DNA from: Rhizomonospora bruguierae
GTDB taxonomy: Bacteria; Actinomycetota; Actinomycetes; Mycobacteriales; Micromonosporaceae
DNA: 64,000 bases
Direction of reading: 5' to 3'
Assembly: GCF_018397995.1 (NCBI RefSeq)
Contig: NZ_BBQH01000080.1
Coordinates: 1 to 64,000 of the forward strand
Part shown: positions 4,141 through 12,167 of the stretch, piece by piece
Position numbering within the stretch: the stretch's first letter is position 1
Layout of the letters: the number at the start of each line of letters is the position of its first letter
The notes under the pieces: model-generated
What the model was told of the DNA's origin: nothing
Database searches by the model: none
Seen by the model: the letters and a program-made list of their open reading frames with translations, nothing else
Program-made: the position numbers and the translations under genes

Positions 4141-5328
4141 ATGCTCACCTACGTCCAGCGACCGACGGTGTACCGGCCGCTGACCGTCGTGGCCGCGATC
4201 CTGTTGCTGCTGGCCACCGCGCTGTCCACCGCCGCCTTCGCACACGGCTCGACGATCGACCCCATGTCGCGCAACTACGGGTGCTGGAAGCGCTGGGGCA
4301 ACGACTTCCAGAACCCCGCCATGGCCACCCAGGACCCGATGTGCTGGCAGGCGTGGCAGGCCGACCCGAACGCCATGTGGAACTGGAACGGCCTGTACCG
4401 CGAGGGCGTCGCCGGCAACCACCAGGGCGCGATCCCCGACGGGCAGTTGTGCAGCGGCGGGCAGACCGGGGGCACCCGGTACGCCGCCCTGGACACCCCC
4501 GGCGCCTGGAAGGCGACCAACGTCAACAACAGCTTCAACCTGGTCGTGCACGACCAGGCCCGGCACGGCGCCGACTACTTCATGATCTACGTGACCAAGC
4601 AGGGCTTCAACCCGCTCACCCAGAAGCCCCGGTGGAGCGACCTCGAACTGATCACCAAGACCAGGAAGTACGCCCCCGGCGAGGGGCAGACCACGAACGA
4701 CCCGGTCCTCAACGGCGTCTCGATCACGATCCCGGTCAGCGCGCCGGGGCGGACCGGCCGGCACATCGTCTACACGATCTGGCAGGCCAGCCACGCCGAC
4801 CAGTCGTACTACTGGTGCAGCGACGTGATCTTCCCGGGCGGCCCAGCGGAGCCGACGACCCCGCCGACCACCCCCACGACGCCGCCCACCAGCCCGACCA
4901 CGAGGCCGCCGACCACCCCGCCGACCACCAACCCGACGACGAGGCCGCCGACCACCCCGCCGACGCAGCAGCCGACCACCCCGCCCACGACCCCGACCCA
5001 CGGCCCGACGCCGCCCCCGGGTGGCAACGCGTCCTGCTCCGTGGCGTACTCGATCGTGAACCAGTGGGAAGGCGGCTTCCAGGCGGACGTGAAGGTGACC
5101 GCCGGCGGCGCGCCGATCAGCGGCTGGACCGTGAAGTGGACGTACGCCAACGGGCAGCAGGTCAGCTCGTCCTGGGGCGCCACGCTCACCTCCAGCGGAT
5201 CCAGCGTGACCGTGACCAACGCCGCCTACAACGGCAGCCTCGCGGCCGGCACCAGCACCACGTTCGGCCTGCTCGGCTCATGGGCCGGTAGCAACACCGC
5301 ACCCACGCCCACCTGCACCGCCGCGTGA
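4141..5328 (+). CDS. Secreted AA10 lytic polysaccharide monooxygenase with CBM2
   Basis: A 395-residue secreted copper enzyme. Residues 1-34 form a signal peptide ending AAFA, so mature chains begin with His35. The histidine brace is completed by His142 in RHGADYFMIYVTK, which matches the family pattern of cellulose-active AA10 enzymes. The AA10 domain runs to about residue 232 (PMSRNYGCW, WQASHADQSYYWCSDV). A Pro/Thr-rich linker occupies about 236-298, and a family 2 carbohydrate-binding module follows from about 302 (CSVAYSIVNQWEGGF, GWTVKWTYANG) to the end. It should oxidatively cleave crystalline polysaccharide, probably cellulose (AA10 enzymes may also act on chitin), outside the cell. 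It is a single gene with its own regulated promoter and a strong terminator. Confidence 0.93.
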   Translation: MLTYVQRPTVYRPLTVVAAILLLLATALSTAAFAHGSTIDPMSRNYGCWKRWGNDFQNPAMATQDPMCWQAWQADPNAMWNWNGLYREGVAGNHQGAIPDGQLCSGGQTGGTRYAALDTPGAWKATNVNNSFNLVVHDQARHGADYFMIYVTKQGFNPLTQKPRWSDLELITKTRKYAPGEGQTTNDPVLNGVSITIPVSAPGRTGRHIVYTIWQASHADQSYYWCSDVIFPGGPAEPTTPPTTPTTPPTSPTTRPPTTPPTTNPTTRPPTTPPTQQPTTPPTTPTHGPTPPPGGNASCSVAYSIVNQWEGGFQADVKVTAGGAPISGWTVKWTYANGQQVSSSWGATLTSSGSSVTVTNAAYNGSLAAGTSTTFGLLGSWAGSNTAPTPTCTAA

Positions 5329-6203: not shown

Positions 6204-8156
6204 ATGGTCGAGCGCAGCGCGCCGCGCCGTTCACGGGCCGGGCGGGGCTGGCGCCCGGCGCACCGGGCGCCGCGGCGCGGCGGCCACGCCGGGTACGACT
6301 ACGCGACCGGCACCACGCGCGTCATCGACCCGCACACCAGCCTGCACACCGACATCGAGGACGAACCGGGCGACGGGCCGAGCCGCCGCCGCGCCGTCCT
6401 GGCGCTCGGCGGCGCGGCAGCGGCCCTGCTCGGCGGGGTCGCGGCCGGCACCACGCCGACCGGGCGACGGGTGGCGGGCTGGATGGTCGGCGGCGCTCCC
6501 GACCCGACCGACGCGCTGGCCGCGCCGAAGTCGCGGGACACCGGCACCGGGGCCGAGTCCGACCGCCCGGCCGGGCAGCAGGCCAGCCTGGTCCGCACGT
6601 ACGCGGCCGAGAACGAGAGCTACATGGGGTCGACCGCGGGCGCCGGGGTCGCCAAGAACACCCCCGCCGACGGGCGCGAGTACCCGAGCCCGGCGGCAGC
6701 CGCGGCGGCCACCAAGGTCACGGCGAACACCGTGCTGGCCAAGCACCCCGTGCGGCACCTGGCCGGCCGGGCGACGTTCGGGGCGACCCCGCAACTTCTC
6801 GCGGACATCCAGACCATGGGCATCGACGCCTGGCTGGCCCGGCAACTGGCGCCGGAGACCATCCCGCCGACCGAGGCCGAGGTGAAGCTGCCCGAGCTGG
6901 GCACGCTGCGGATGGGCGTGGCGGACCTGCGCCGCGACCGGCAGAAGCTCGCCGACCGGGGCATCCGCGCCGACGAGGAGGCGGCCGAGGCGACGATCGC
7001 CCGGCAGATCTGGTCGGACCGGCAACTGTTCGAGGTCATGGTCGACCTGTGGAACGACGTCCTGCCCGTGGGGCGGGACTTCGAACGGTCCGACGTGGTG
7101 CGCGCCGCGTTCGACCGGGACGTGATCCGCCGGTACGCGTTGGACAACTACCCGGACATGCTGGTCGCCGCGAACCGGCACCCGGCCCTGCTACGCGCCC
7201 TGGACCAGGCGTACTCGCGGGCCGAGGCGGTCAACGAGAACCTGGCCCGGGAGAACCTGGAGCGCTTCTCGGTCGGCGTGGACGGTGGCTGCACCGAGGT
7301 CGACGTGCGGCAGGCCGCGCTGATCCAGACCGGACGGACCGTGGTGGACGACCGGTACGCGTACCGGGCGGAGGACCACCACGTGGGTCCGATCAAGGTC
7401 ATGGGGTTCGCGCACCCCAACCACACGGCCGGGGGCGGCGAGGAGGCGGGCGACGCGTACCTGCGCTACCTGGCGCTGCACCCGTCGACCGCGCGCGCCG
7501 TCGCGGTCGCCCTCGCCACCCGCCTCGTCTCGGACGTGCCGCCGCAATCCATCGTGGACCGGCTGGCGAAGCGGTACCTGGCGGCCAAGGGGCATATCCA
7601 GCCCGTCCTCATGACGCTGTTCTGCTCGTCGGAGTTCTGGGGCTCGGTGGGCCAGAAGGTGCGCCGGCCACGGGAGTACGTGGTCGCCACGTACCGGACG
7701 CTCGGCGTGCAGGCGAGGACGCCGGCCGCGTTCGAGGCGGACACGGGCAGCCGCACGGCGTTCGGCACCGGCCTGCGCGAGGTGCGACTCAAGCTCGCCG
7801 ACCTGGGGCACGAGCCGATGACCGGCCCGGCCCTGGACGTGTTCGTGCCGTGGGCGACCGCCGGCGCGCTGGTCGGTCAGTGGAACGAGGCGCTGACCGC
7901 GGTCACCGGTGGGCGCGCGATGTTCACCTACACCGCGCCGGAGCGGCTCGTCGCCCGACCGCCCGCCACGGCGGGCGCGTACCTGGACGCGCTCGCCCGG
8001 CGTCTGGTCCACCAACCGCTGTCTGCCAGGCAGCGGGCGCTGATCCTCGGCGTGGCCGGCCTGCCGGAGAGCGCCCGGGTCGACGCGACCTTCAACGGCG
8101 CGATCGCCGCCGTGGCCCGCGCCATCCTCGCCTCCCCCCTGCACCACCTGCGATGA
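6204..8156 (+). CDS. DUF1800 family protein with Tat-like segment
   Basis: A 650-residue protein. A twin-arginine-like motif (SRRRAVLALG, residues 60-69) and a hydrophobic stretch GGAAAALLGGVAAG follow an unusually long basic N-terminal region, suggesting Tat export or membrane anchoring. The DUF1800 core begins near residue 180 with HLAGRATFGATP and ends with the YLDALARRLVHQPLS region and an Arg-rich tail. DUF1800 proteins have no settled biochemical role; they are almost always paired with DUF1501 proteins, as here (next gene 8 bp downstream). The window's downstream flavin/haem electron-transfer genes are probably in the same transcript. The ATG at 6204 is chosen; other starts upstream are possible. 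Confidence 0.8.
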   Translation: MVERSAPRRSRAGRGWRPAHRAPRRGGHAGYDYATGTTRVIDPHTSLHTDIEDEPGDGPSRRRAVLALGGAAAALLGGVAAGTTPTGRRVAGWMVGGAPDPTDALAAPKSRDTGTGAESDRPAGQQASLVRTYAAENESYMGSTAGAGVAKNTPADGREYPSPAAAAAATKVTANTVLAKHPVRHLAGRATFGATPQLLADIQTMGIDAWLARQLAPETIPPTEAEVKLPELGTLRMGVADLRRDRQKLADRGIRADEEAAEATIARQIWSDRQLFEVMVDLWNDVLPVGRDFERSDVVRAAFDRDVIRRYALDNYPDMLVAANRHPALLRALDQAYSRAEAVNENLARENLERFSVGVDGGCTEVDVRQAALIQTGRTVVDDRYAYRAEDHHVGPIKVMGFAHPNHTAGGGEEAGDAYLRYLALHPSTARAVAVALATRLVSDVPPQSIVDRLAKRYLAAKGHIQPVLMTLFCSSEFWGSVGQKVRRPREYVVATYRTLGVQARTPAAFEADTGSRTAFGTGLREVRLKLADLGHEPMTGPALDVFVPWATAGALVGQWNEALTAVTGGRAMFTYTAPERLVARPPATAGAYLDALARRLVHQPLSARQRALILGVAGLPESARVDATFNGAIAAVARAILASPLHHLR

Positions 8157-8163
8157 GGTACCG

Positions 8164-9357
8164 ATGATTTCTGCGACCCGGCGCCAGTTCATGGCCGGCA
8201 CCGCGGCGGCGGTGACCGCGGTGGCCACCGCCCAGGTCGCCGGCGCGCGGGCCGCGGCCGGCGCGGCGACCGGCGGCACGCTCGTACACGTGTTCCTCCA
8301 CGGCGGCCTGGACGGGCTGAGCCTCGTCGCGCCCGCGAAGGACCCGGTGCTCGCGACGCTACGGCCGAACCTGCTGCTCGGGAGCGACTCGCTGCCGCTG
8401 CCCCGGGGCTTCCGGCTGACCGGCGCGTTCAAGCCGCTGGCGAGTTACCTGGGATCGGGGCACCTGGCGTTCATCCCGGGGGTCTCGGATCCGCGCATCT
8501 CACGCAGCCACTTCCAGGCACAGGATGTCTGCCACCTCGGCGGGCTGCCGGGCGAGACCGACGGCCGGGGCTGGCTGGACGCCCTGGTGAACCTGCTCGG
8601 CGGCGGTACCGTGCTGCGCGGCGTCGCCATCGGTGCCACGCTGCCCCGATCGCTGGTCGGCACCGGGAACGCCGCCGCGCTGACCGCTGTGGACTCGCTG
8701 CGGCTGGACGGTGACGCCCGGTACGCGGACGCGACCGCCGAGGCGCTGCGGGGCCTGTTCACCGGCATCGACCACCCGGCGGAGCACACCGTGCGCTCCG
8801 CCCTGGCCGCCGTGGAAACGGCCCGGCGGGTCGCCCCGCCGGCCGATGCGGCCGGGTACGACGGTGCCGCGGGTGCCGCACTGCGGCAGGTCGCCCGGCT
8901 CATCAAGGGCGGGGCCGGCGTGCGGGTGGCGACCGTCGCGGTCGGCGGCTTCGACACCCACGAGAACCAGGGCACCGGGCCGGGCGGCTACCTGTACGGC
9001 CGGCTGAACGACCTGGCCACGGCGCTGGCGGCGTTCTTCGACGACCTCGGCGACCGGCGGGCGGAGGTGACCGTGATGATCTCCAGCGAGTTCGGCCGGC
9101 GGGTAGCGGAAAACGGACGCGGCTGCGACCACGGCCACGGCGGCGTGATTTCCGTACTGTCCGGCAGGAGGCTGGCCGGACCGCTCCTGGGCGCCTGGGA
9201 CGGCCTGGCCGAACTGGACAATGGAGACGTTCCGGAGTTCACCAACATGTTCGACGTGTTCGGATCCGTCGCGCAGGGCCGGTTCGCGTTGACCACCGGT
9301 GAGGTGCAGCAGATGTTCCCGCACCGCAGGTTCACACCGATCGAGCTGTACGCGTGA
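8164..9357 (+). CDS. DUF1501 family protein, Tat-secreted
   Basis: A 397-residue protein beginning MISATRRQFMAG, a clear twin-arginine signal (TRRQFM) followed by an Ala-rich hydrophobic segment to about residue 37. The mature part belongs to the DUF1501 family, related to the alkaline-phosphatase/sulfatase superfamily: VHVFLHGGLDGLS near the start, HFQAQDVCHLGG, VGGFDTHENQG, VMISSEFGRR and DHGHGGV carry conserved Asp/His residues. It pairs with the preceding DUF1800 gene, a combination seen across bacteria. The enzymatic activity is unproven. The next start (GTG 9354) overlaps its stop codon. Confidence 0.85.
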   Translation: MISATRRQFMAGTAAAVTAVATAQVAGARAAAGAATGGTLVHVFLHGGLDGLSLVAPAKDPVLATLRPNLLLGSDSLPLPRGFRLTGAFKPLASYLGSGHLAFIPGVSDPRISRSHFQAQDVCHLGGLPGETDGRGWLDALVNLLGGGTVLRGVAIGATLPRSLVGTGNAAALTAVDSLRLDGDARYADATAEALRGLFTGIDHPAEHTVRSALAAVETARRVAPPADAAGYDGAAGAALRQVARLIKGGAGVRVATVAVGGFDTHENQGTGPGGYLYGRLNDLATALAAFFDDLGDRRAEVTVMISSEFGRRVAENGRGCDHGHGGVISVLSGRRLAGPLLGAWDGLAELDNGDVPEFTNMFDVFGSVAQGRFALTTGEVQQMFPHRRFTPIELYA

Positions 9358-10763
9358 GCGCGGCCCGCCGCACCACCCGGCAGAGCCGGCGCGCCGCCAC
9401 CGGCGTGGTGGCCCGCGCCGCCCGGCCGGCGGAGGTGCCCGCGCAGCGCGGCAGCGTGCCCCGGCACGCCGTCACCGCGATCCTGTGGATCGGGCTGGTC
9501 GCCGCCGTCGCGCCGTGGTGGGTGCAGACCAGGCCGGAGGATCTGGCCGGCTCCGGCGCGCTGCTGACCGCCGGCGGCCGGATCACCGGCCTGGTCGCCG
9601 GCTACCTGCTGCTCACGCAGGTGCTGCTGATGAGCCGGCTGCGCGTGCTGGACCGCTGGGTCGGCGAGGAGCGGCTGGTTCGGCTGCACCGCGAACTCGG
9701 CGGCGCGCTCGTGGTCGCGCTGATCTTCCACGTGGTGCTCACCGTGTACGGGTACGCCGCGCTGGACCGGGTCGGCCCGGTCCGGGAGAGCGTTACCCTG
9801 CTCACCGACTACGAGGACATGATCAGCGCCACGGTCGCCGGCGGGATCATGGTCGCCACCGGGCTGCTCGCGATCCGGTTCATCCGCAACGCCATGCCGT
9901 ACGAACTGTGGAAGCTGCTGCACGCCACCACATACCTGGTGCTGCTGTTCGGGTACGGGCACCAGTTCGCGCTCGGCCAGCAGCTGTTCCGCCCCGGGCC
10001 GTCCCGAACGTTCTGGATCGGCCTGTACGGGCTGGTCCTGCTGTGCCTGTTCTGGGGCCGGGTGGTCGTGCCGCTGGGGCTGAACCTGCGCCACCGGTTC
10101 CAAGTGGCGGACGTGGTGGCCGAGAGCCCCGGCGTCATCTCCATCTACCTGACCGGGCGCCGCCTGGACCTGCTCCACGTGCGCGCCGGCCAATACTGCC
10201 GGTGGCGGTTCCTCACCTCCGGGTGCTGGTGGCAGGCGCACCCGTTCTCGCTGTCGGCCGCCGGTAACGGGCGCTGGCTGCGGCTCACCGTGAAGATCGT
10301 CGGCTCGCACACCGAGGATCTCCAGGACCTGCGCCCCGGCACGCGGGTCTGGACCACCCCGCCGGCCGGCGAGTTCACCGCCGAGCGGCGCACCCGCCCG
10401 CGCGCCCTGCTGATCGCCGGCGGCACCGGCATCGCGCCGATCCGGGCGCTGCTGGAGGAGTTGCCGGAGGGCGCCGCCGTGATCTACCGGGCGAAAGCCG
10501 TCGAGGACATCCTGTTCCGCCAGGAACTGGACTGGCTGGCCGACGCCCGCCGCGCCGACCTGTGGTACGTCCTGGGCGACCGCGACGATCCCGGGCCGCG
10601 CTCGGTCTTCACCGTCAAGGGACTGCGGCAACTGGTCCCCGACCTGGCCGCCCGGGACGTGTACCTCTGCGGCCCGGACGGGCTGATCCGCTCCTGCCAA
10701 CGGATCCTGCGCCGGGCCGGGGTGCCCCGCCGGCAGGTCCACACGGCCGCCTTTGAATTTTGA
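9354..10763 (+). CDS. Ferric-reductase-like haem/flavin membrane oxidoreductase
   Basis: A 469-residue protein. An N-terminal membrane domain (about residues 40-240) carries four histidines, His112, His126, His190 and His203, spaced as in two bis-His haem pairs of the ferric reductase/NOX family. A ferredoxin-NADP+ reductase-type module follows: the FAD-binding motif HPFSLS (296-301), the nucleotide-binding GGTGIAP (356-362) and CGPDG (439-443). Electrons from cytoplasmic NAD(P)H would pass through FAD and haems to the outer face. It starts with GTG overlapping the DUF1501 stop (GTGA). Its neighbours, an FMN-binding protein and ApbE, suggest that the external acceptor is a covalently flavinylated protein rather than free iron. 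Confidence 0.88.
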   Translation: MSAARRTTRQSRRAATGVVARAARPAEVPAQRGSVPRHAVTAILWIGLVAAVAPWWVQTRPEDLAGSGALLTAGGRITGLVAGYLLLTQVLLMSRLRVLDRWVGEERLVRLHRELGGALVVALIFHVVLTVYGYAALDRVGPVRESVTLLTDYEDMISATVAGGIMVATGLLAIRFIRNAMPYELWKLLHATTYLVLLFGYGHQFALGQQLFRPGPSRTFWIGLYGLVLLCLFWGRVVVPLGLNLRHRFQVADVVAESPGVISIYLTGRRLDLLHVRAGQYCRWRFLTSGCWWQAHPFSLSAAGNGRWLRLTVKIVGSHTEDLQDLRPGTRVWTTPPAGEFTAERRTRPRALLIAGGTGIAPIRALLEELPEGAAVIYRAKAVEDILFRQELDWLADARRADLWYVLGDRDDPGPRSVFTVKGLRQLVPDLAARDVYLCGPDGLIRSCQRILRRAGVPRRQVHTAAFEF

Positions 10764-10809
10764 GCCCCCGAGACCCGGCCGCTTTCGACCCTTCTAGGAG
10801 TCCACCCGC

Positions 10810-11304
10810 ATGCGTCGCGCAGTTCTCGCCATCACCGGCCTGGCCGTCGGCACGCCGCTACTGGTGGCGCTGAAGCTCGGGGCGGCGGCCCCGCCGGCGA
10901 CCGCCGACGCCACAGCCGCTTCGAACACGCAAGGGCCCACACCCACCGGCACCGGGAAGGGCGCCAAGTCGACGCCCACCAAGGCGGCCCCCACGAAGGC
11001 CCCCGCCAAGAAGCCGGCCGGCACCCGCACCGTCGCGGGCACCCCGCAGGACAGCCCGTACGGCACCGTCAAGGTTCAGGTGGTGCTCGACGGCAACAAG
11101 ATCACCGACGTGCAGGCGGTCCAGCTGCCGCAGACCGAGCCGCGCTCGATCTCGCTGAACGAGCGGGCCATCCCCCAGCTGCGCAAGGAGGTCCTGGCGA
11201 AGCAGAGCGCCGACGTGGACACCGTCTCCGGCGCCACGTTCACCAGCGAGGGATACCTGAACTCGCTCCAGGCCGCCCTGGACGCGGCCGGGGTCGGTGC
11301 CTGA
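10810..11304 (+). CDS. Secreted/anchored FMN-binding domain protein (ApbE substrate)
   Basis: A 164-residue protein with an N-terminal hydrophobic segment (residues 4-30), a Thr/Lys/Pro-rich linker (about 35-75) and a C-terminal FMN-binding domain. The flavinylation motif D137-T-V-S-G-A-T143 is intact, with Thr143 the expected site of covalent FMN attachment. AGGAG lies just upstream of the ATG. It lies between the haem/flavin reductase and the ApbE transferase, and its stop overlaps the apbE start. It probably receives electrons from the reductase on the extracytoplasmic side; the final acceptor is unknown. Confidence 0.88.
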   Translation: MRRAVLAITGLAVGTPLLVALKLGAAAPPATADATAASNTQGPTPTGTGKGAKSTPTKAAPTKAPAKKPAGTRTVAGTPQDSPYGTVKVQVVLDGNKITDVQAVQLPQTEPRSISLNERAIPQLRKEVLAKQSADVDTVSGATFTSEGYLNSLQAALDAAGVGA

Positions 11305-12064
11305 GGCGCGCCTGCTGCGCCCGGGCCTGCGCCGGGTGGAGCAGGTGATGGGCACCGCGATCAGCCTCGACATCGCCGACCCGCTGCCGCCGGAGCGCCT
11401 GGAGCGCCTCGCCGACCAGGTCTTCACCTGGATGCGCGAGGTCGACCAGCGGTTCAGCACCTACCGCGACGACAGCGAGGTCAGGCGCCTGGACCGGGGC
11501 GACCTGCGGGCCGAGGACGCCTCCGCCGGGCTGCGTCACGTGCTGGACCGGTGCGCCGCCCTCTGGCGCGAGACCGGCGGGTACTTCGACGCGCACGCCG
11601 GCGGCCACCTCGACCCGTCCGGCTACGTGAAGGGCTGGGCCGTGCAGGTGGCCTCGGACCGGCTGGCCCGCCTGGGCGCCGCCAACCACTGCCTGAACGC
11701 GGGCGGCGACGTCCGCGTCCGCGGCGTGGCCGAACCGGGCCGCCCCTGGCGCGTCGGCATCCGCCACCCGTGGGACCCCCGGCACACCTGCCTGATCGTC
11801 ACCGGCACCGACCTGGCCGTGGCCACCTCCGGGGTGTACGAGCGCGGCCATCACGTCCTCGACCCGCACCCCGGCGAGCCGGCCACCGGCCTGCGCTCGG
11901 TCACCGTCGCCGGCCCCGACCTCGGCGACGCGGACGCCTACGCCACCGCCGCCCTGGCGATGGGCGTCCCCGGTCTGGACTGGGTGAGCCGGCTACCAGG
12001 GTACGAATGCGCCGTGGTCACGGACGACGGCGAGCTGTACCGCTCCCCCGGCCTGCCCACATAG
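11297..12064 (+). CDS. apbE: FAD:protein FMN transferase ApbE
   Basis: A 255-residue ApbE family enzyme. Visible features are the N-terminal VMGTAISLDI strand, FSTYRDDSEV, DPSGYVKGWAVQ, LNAGGDVRVRG and the C-terminal metal-binding region ATSGVYERGHHVLDPHPGEPA. It transfers FMN from FAD to Thr in the D-x2-SGAT motif, and the preceding gene encodes just such a protein. It is shorter than typical lipoprotein ApbEs (about 330 residues) and lacks a signal peptide, as in many actinobacterial members. The GTG start at 11297 overlaps the previous stop; a strong terminator follows directly. Confidence 0.9.
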   Translation: MPEARLLRPGLRRVEQVMGTAISLDIADPLPPERLERLADQVFTWMREVDQRFSTYRDDSEVRRLDRGDLRAEDASAGLRHVLDRCAALWRETGGYFDAHAGGHLDPSGYVKGWAVQVASDRLARLGAANHCLNAGGDVRVRGVAEPGRPWRVGIRHPWDPRHTCLIVTGTDLAVATSGVYERGHHVLDPHPGEPATGLRSVTVAGPDLGDADAYATAALAMGVPGLDWVSRLPGYECAVVTDDGELYRSPGLPT

Positions 12065-12069
12065 GACTG

Positions 12070-12109
12070 GGGCGTGCGGCGGGGCGCCGGCATGCCCCGC
12101 CGCACGCCC
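12070..12109 (+). terminator. Strong hairpin terminator closing the ApbE operon
   Basis: A 16-bp perfect stem: GGGCGTGCGGCGGGGC at 12070-12085 and its complement at 12094-12109, with an 8-nt loop, beginning 6 nt after the apbE stop. It defines the 3' end of the DUF1800-to-ApbE transcript. Confidence 0.8.
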
Positions 12110-12167
12110 CGCCCCGCCCCGCCGAAACCGTTGGCGGCGGCATCGTCCAAGCGCTTACTGTCGCCGG

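Follow-up and report, generated by a model that had tools for sequence, protein, structure and literature searches.

A 64,000-nucleotide stretch of the Rhizomonospora bruguierae genome (contig NZ_BBQH01000080.1, positions 1 to 64,000; hereafter the window) carries five consecutive forward-strand genes, encoding a DUF1800 protein, a DUF1501 protein, a membrane reductase, a flavin mononucleotide (FMN)-binding protein of the FMN_bind family, and the enzyme ApbE, which transfers FMN to protein from flavin adenine dinucleotide (FAD). An earlier note on this DNA described these genes as a candidate extracytosolic flavin electron-transfer system with the two DUF proteins as possible external clients, and the open reading frames (ORFs) and Pfam matches of the window bear out the five families, their order, their common strand, and their spacing. 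The five-gene order recurs in several genera and the other fetched pairs and triads are unlinked, which is more than chance. With moderate probability, the locus is one operon of two separable modules, an MsrQ-like triad of reductase, FMN_bind protein, and ApbE, and an exported DUF1800-DUF1501 pair, whose link is optional rather than obligatory.

Genes and motifs of the five-gene unit

From the first gene to the fifth, the intergenic distances are 7 nucleotides (nt), a 4-nt overlap, 46 nt, and an 8-nt overlap. The MsrQ-like or NOX-like reductase (9354-10763, forward strand) has predicted haem, FAD, and NAD(P)H domains, matching Ferric_reduct (PF01794) at 58.2 bits against a cut-off of 28, the C-terminal NAD-binding domain NAD_binding_1 (PF00175) at 41.3 bits against 22, and FAD_binding_8 at 25 bits. 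Four spaced histidines that are candidate haem ligands (H112 and H126, 14 apart; H190 and H203, 13 apart) and the nucleotide-binding residues H296-P-F-S and G357/G359/P362 are present as earlier claimed, all at 100% in 38 relatives. The FMN_bind protein (10810-11304, forward strand; PF04205, 43 bits; solved-structure match 8p2a) consists of MRR and a hydrophobic N-terminal segment, a linker, and the FMN_bind domain, and its flavinylation motif is intact (D137-x2-S140-G-A-T143). It is the sole FMN_bind match found across the genome. ApbE (11297-12064, forward strand) clusters with these two genes, matches PF02424 at 151 bits against a cut-off of 25.6, and lacks a recognisable signal peptide.

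Family content, structure matches, and motifs support the proposal that genes three to five encode an NAD(P)H-FAD-haem-FMN chain, in which the haem and the covalent FMN are predicted. Cytosolic NAD(P)H would reduce the FAD of the reductase, two stacked haems would move electrons across the membrane, and FMN held covalently on Thr143 of the anchored FMN protein would hand them to an outside acceptor, for which ferric iron, quinone, or oxygen are candidates. Among 24 reductase loci sampled class-wide, 20 have both the FMN protein and ApbE, three have the FMN protein only, and one, with a contig end nearby, has neither. The motif SGAT, SGAS, or TGAT is present in 87 of 100 FMN-protein rows, a set that includes duplicates; five rows end before the motif and eight are altered (SQAT in four, SDAT in two, STAT and GGAT in one each). 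The altered-motif loci (L045, L104, L140, L142, L144, L161, L204, and L205) keep the acceptor threonine and an adjoining ApbE, making them natural tests of motif tolerance.

Elsewhere in the R. bruguierae genome, a second ApbE gene (G000:C11:116500-129500, L227) adjoins a gene for a NuoF-like protein (Complex1_51K, SLBB, and NADH_4Fe-4S domains), and the genome's FMN_bind match, in the window, is not beside it. A NuoF-like partner is named for some MsrQ-like clusters in passages of PMC8238504. Two Streptomyces plasmids carry stand-alone triads (L251 and L252) oriented divergently from genes for a sensor kinase and its response regulator, an arrangement that suggests signal-controlled expression.

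A GC-rich inverted repeat (12068-12111, forward strand) lies 3′ of ApbE and is a candidate terminator. The "one strong terminator" claimed for the unit holds in so far as the hairpin is strong (19 bp, -45.9 kcal/mol when 12065-12130 is folded), but the T run is absent and the hairpin was not listed by a terminator scan. Transcription may nevertheless end there.

The DUF1800 protein (6204-8156, forward strand; PF08811, 304 bits) belongs to a long subtype, whose relatives have reading frames that align with a methionine near the ATG at 6204. It has an N-terminal tail of about 60 residues, a signal or anchor with the Tat-like (twin-arginine translocation) sequence SRRRAVLALGG, and an all-helical domain at about residues 180-650; the AlphaFold model is confident (pLDDT 89.9, pTM 0.91). 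No cysteine occurs in the domain in 17 of 19 rows linked to the reductase, so no haem-c, iron-sulfur, or thiol site is evident. Sequence searches returned no credible solved relative (best E 0.29) and Foldseek returned none at E≤0.001; the best VIA relative, a phycobilisome linker domain, scored Z 3.7, which is too weak to use, and the missing match in that list is not evidence of a new fold. The window copy departs from conserved columns at eight positions, tied fifth of 83 rows, and perhaps has a relaxed or altered function. Three changes encoded at 7047-7292 (F to L at 282, L to R at 354, and Y to C at 363) fall at columns that are otherwise 98-99% constant.

The DUF1501 protein (8164-9357, forward strand; PF07394, 61 bits) begins with a Tat-like TRRQFMAG signal, and residues R6, R7, D50, S115, H116, D264, H266, E309, D322, and H323 are 99-100% conserved in 82 relatives. 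Its model (pLDDT 74.9, pTM 0.81) gives a predicted alkaline-phosphatase-superfamily fold: in VIA comparisons, the 50 listed rows, with Z from 14.5 to 12.7, are headed by nucleotide pyrophosphatases/phosphodiesterases (NPPs) and include sulfatases and alkaline phosphatases, with a root-mean-square deviation (rmsd) of 3.5-4.4 over 219-263 residues and 7-14% identity. The top alignment (Z 14.5) has an rmsd of 3.9 over 239 residues, and 424 of 640 compared chains reach Z≥8. Foldseek gave a best E of 0.018 and nothing below 0.001, and no solved relative is credible by sequence (best E 0.13). Profile comparison of 24 members matched DUF1501 in all 24 and four other families weakly, none of them from the alkaline-phosphatase superfamily. 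Six of the conserved residues (D50, S115, D264, H266, D322, and H323) fit a metal site and are candidates for the two-metal ligand set and nucleophile of the superfamily, with spacing unlike the classic set; textbook ligand spacing in the superfamily differs from the D264-x-H266 pattern. In L043 and in 10 of 61 named linked loci, the Tat-like signal of DUF1501 is preceded by a tail bearing an HPDC motif, which is absent from the window copy. The idea that either DUF protein is an alternative ApbE substrate was rejected, as neither carries an [ST]GA[ST] motif in the linked rows.

Linkage and separability across relatives

DUF1800 was found in 85 of 121 genomes of the family sample, and 60 pair loci were fetched, comprising the second pair of the R. 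bruguierae genome, the long-type-looking ones among the matches listed, and a sample of other types. Linkage to the reductase was seen in 19, all of them long-type, and the unlinked loci comprise 12 of the long type and all 29 of the other types, including the second R. bruguierae pair. An ApbE gene was identified in 16 of these linked loci, and L049 stops at a contig end. A reductase gene comes directly after the pair in 61 of the 63 loci named as Micromonospora, Asanoa, or Verrucosispora (56/58, 4/4, and 1/1, respectively) and all five genes are present in 56 (52, 3, and 1); each of the seven loci without the full set (L135, L136, L141, L143, L154, L165, and L166) reaches a contig end. In other named loci, the reductase is adjacent to the pair in none of three from Phytohabitans, seven from Dactylosporangium, and four from four other genera, and Labedaea has a weak match 8 kb away. 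Class-wide, all 20 DUF1800 pairs lack triad genes in the fetched stretch, and no reductase stands beside DUF1800 outside the family among the matches listed, with places compared by eye. A related-locus scan with the window DUF1800 alone as query found no relatives. The earlier note held that the link would fail if close relatives had the pair just as often without the reductase genes. Pairs without them are indeed common in the family and universal in the class-wide sample, but the long subtype of Micromonospora and Asanoa is linked almost constantly.

The 19 linked reductase rows form one group with two unlinked rows (SH-aLRT 96) in a tree from which rows shorter than 350 residues were dropped, including the two pieces from L054, and in which the long branch of the window reductase is uncertain in its placement. 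In the DUF1501 tree, the long type has its own branch (support 100), where 20 of the 31 rows are linked and 11 are unlinked.

The five genes are probably one operon, because in 50 of the 58 named loci that were measured the end of DUF1501 and the start of the reductase gene share 4 nt, and in 57 of 58 they lie within 20 nt of each other, with starts inferred by taking the start codon nearest to that of the window. One unit looks decayed or mis-sequenced: in G001 (L054, 4814-10783), DUF1800 is spread over three ORFs and the reductase over two, ApbE was not found, and a separate triad (L104) is present in the genome.

Either half can be missing at the same site. Two loci from different genera, L095 (G019) and L096 (G008), keep the triad and lack the DUF pair, and both flanks are those of Micromonospora locus L036, with an SNF2-helicase gene upstream and, downstream, genes for helix-turn-helix, flavoprotein-family, and NIF3-family proteins. 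Conversely, L075 and L080 of the Phytohabitans group have the pair directly before the same downstream genes with the triad absent, and the upstream side differs. Both modules are present at different places in all five Dactylosporangium genomes looked at, and all 20 family reductase loci picked away from DUF1800 have complete triads. Because of the same-site losses, the stand-alone triads, and the stand-alone class-wide pairs, each half seems able to do without the other. At this one site, some genomes have both modules and some a single one, which offers a natural test case for two DUF families that have no agreed function.

The neighbourhood of the window unit is its own: its flanks have no match in any of the 16 loci tested, although its five genes lie side by side; a lone one-way flank match was an out-of-frame ORF over ApbE. 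A lytic polysaccharide monooxygenase (LPMO) of family AA10 with a CBM2 module is encoded upstream of the unit at 4141-5328, and the other-type pairs of L093 and L094 have LPMO-like ORFs in their vicinity. A link of LPMO to the unit was rejected, with no match in 77 named loci, many of which are cut by contig ends; the glyoxalase, APH-like kinase, and SerA flank genes likewise had no match in these 77 loci and are not unit members.

Export signals and the site of flavin attachment

A signal was scored where a 15-residue stretch before the protein core exceeded 1.4 on the Kyte-Doolittle scale. The FMN protein passed in 96 of 96 rows, DUF1800 in 112 of 136 (14 were too short), and DUF1501 in 108 of 136, its signals being weak (30/136 pass at 1.6). 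Twin arginines occur in all 82 aligned DUF1501 rows, an RRxhh motif in 115 of 136 DUF1800 rows, and twin arginines in 99 of 100 family rows of the FMN protein, and the genome has one TatC gene. DUF1800, DUF1501, and the FMN protein are therefore candidate Tat substrates, the last of these likely only in this family. For the two DUF proteins, the twin-arginine motifs on which Tat export had been proposed are present, and it is these motifs that argue for it.

ApbE has no such signal. None of 93 family rows exceeds 1.4 (7 pass at 1.0 and 1 at 1.2) and 10 are too short, with fewer than 15 residues before the core; class-wide, none of 20 has a signal, 7 are too short, and the best value is 1.05. 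The window ApbE reaches 0.95, compared with 1.99 for E. coli ApbE, and in its frame the first start codon lies just 17 residues ahead of the core Met18. The genes as called on two Streptomyces plasmids likewise give a signal-less ApbE. As its target looks exported, these features suggest that flavin is attached in the cytosol before export, and extracytosolic attachment becomes doubtful.

A wider proposal is tentative and has perhaps one chance in three of being right: in actinobacterial MsrQ-like systems, an ApbE lacking a signal would load FMN onto its target in the cytosol, and the folded product would then be exported, via Tat in Micromonosporaceae, whereas flavinylation in the systems described so far takes place outside the membrane. 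Counting against the Tat step, twin arginines occur in just 14 of the 23 FMN proteins sampled class-wide, two Streptomyces proteins begin MIR and MKR, and eight of the nine class-wide loci without twin arginines also have a signal-less ApbE, so Tat would not be the whole story across the class. Most ApbEs seem to be secreted and cytosolic ones exist, according to parts of a review (PMC12052999), and no description of cytosolic flavinylation before export was found in the listed titles and passages of the literature on Tat or twin arginines with ApbE. If the proposal is true, flavin may be attached inside the cell throughout a class of systems known for "extracytosolic flavinylation", and tests of their maturation would have to be designed differently.

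Interpretation and comparison with known systems

In the two-module reading, DUF1800 and DUF1501 would be an exported pair travelling together, in which DUF1501 is probably an enzyme of the metal-dependent hydrolase type and the helical DUF1800 would be its partner. The pair and the triad are co-located and probably co-expressed in Micromonospora, Asanoa, and sister genera, most likely because each has its role at the cell surface under shared conditions. Several points weigh against this reading. Most linked genera have flanking genes in common, and inheritance of the neighbourhood may account for much of the conserved order; two or three loss events are few; and the spacing leans on inferred starts, with a gap of about 220 nt in the two measured loci of genus g11. 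In L053 and L054, ApbE was not found in the several kb after the FMN gene. The DUF1501 metal ligands map inexactly onto the classic set, H325 is at 100% in linked rows and 38% in others, and no biochemistry of DUF1800 or DUF1501 was found in the portions of the literature examined.

In another reading, the modules have no functional link, having become neighbours in one ancestor and been inherited together. Flanks outside the unit are common to genera g4 (Micromonospora), g18 (Asanoa), g11, g37, and g2, linkage beyond one clade was not seen in the fetched loci, and just three changes of linked or unlinked label are needed on the reductase tree and two on the DUF1501 tree. Start and stop codons nevertheless overlap or nearly touch in most species measured, and the window unit is intact in a different neighbourhood, which leaves an absent link unlikely, at about one chance in five.

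The client hypothesis, in which DUF1800 or DUF1501, or both, are external redox partners fed by the flavinylated protein, is less probable again. Order and close spacing are conserved across genera, the linked pair is a distinct long subtype, and DUF1800 and ApbE fall in one correlation cluster of a metagenome study, as given in a table of PMC3597751. However, the same-site losses of either half argue, short of proof, that such a relationship is less likely, and other subtypes of the pair are unlinked in every family and class-wide locus fetched. The nearest reductases elsewhere in three Phytohabitans-group genomes, at 41-42% identity, have no FMN_bind or ApbE gene nearby in any of the three. 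Neither the cysteine-poor DUF1800 nor DUF1501 has a flavinylation motif in the linked rows, and DUF1501 has a predicted hydrolase-superfamily fold with no evident redox fold. A literature search for DUF1800 together with flavin found nothing, and DUF1501 was not found in the main text of PMC5615132. It is most improbable that DUF1501 works outside the cell as a nucleotide-pyrophosphatase-like enzyme that supplies or recycles flavin for the FMN chain by acting on flavin nucleotides or other phosphoesters. The top rank of NPPs among the structural relatives of its model speaks for this role, but a shared fold says nothing on substrate, the pair often has no triad genes nearby, and a signal-less ApbE makes flavin attachment inside the cell probable.

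The two-module reading can be set beside four known groups. The predicted DUF1501 fold is shared with the alkaline-phosphatase superfamily (NPPs, sulfatases, and alkaline phosphatases), and the ligand spacing is not identical. The best solved sequence relatives of the reductase, 8qt6 and 8qq7, are labelled in the database as FAD-binding FR-type domain-containing proteins, and we take them to be a SpNOX-type bacterial NADPH oxidase. The similarity is modest (57.6 bits), and the reductase here is coupled to an FMN protein and ApbE.

DUF1800-DUF1501 operons beside bacterial chitin synthases, as described in passages of PMC5122149, share the adjacent pair and the DUF1501 twin-arginine motif, whereas the pair here is linked to a reductase triad, has a DUF1800 with a long N-terminal tail, and belongs to a distinct DUF1501 branch. 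Finally, MsrQ-like flavinylation systems are broadly conserved in Actinobacteria, according to passages of Meheust et al. 2021 (PMC8238504), and share with the window a PF01794 six-helix haem protein, often with a C-terminal NAD-binding domain, and an FMN_bind protein together with ApbE. The main text of that paper, with its supplement unsearched, contains no DUF1800, DUF1501, their Pfam numbers, or Micromonospora. In the window, unlike in those systems, DUF1800 and DUF1501 precede the triad, and what is new is the junction of an MsrQ-like triad with the long DUF1800-DUF1501 subtype.

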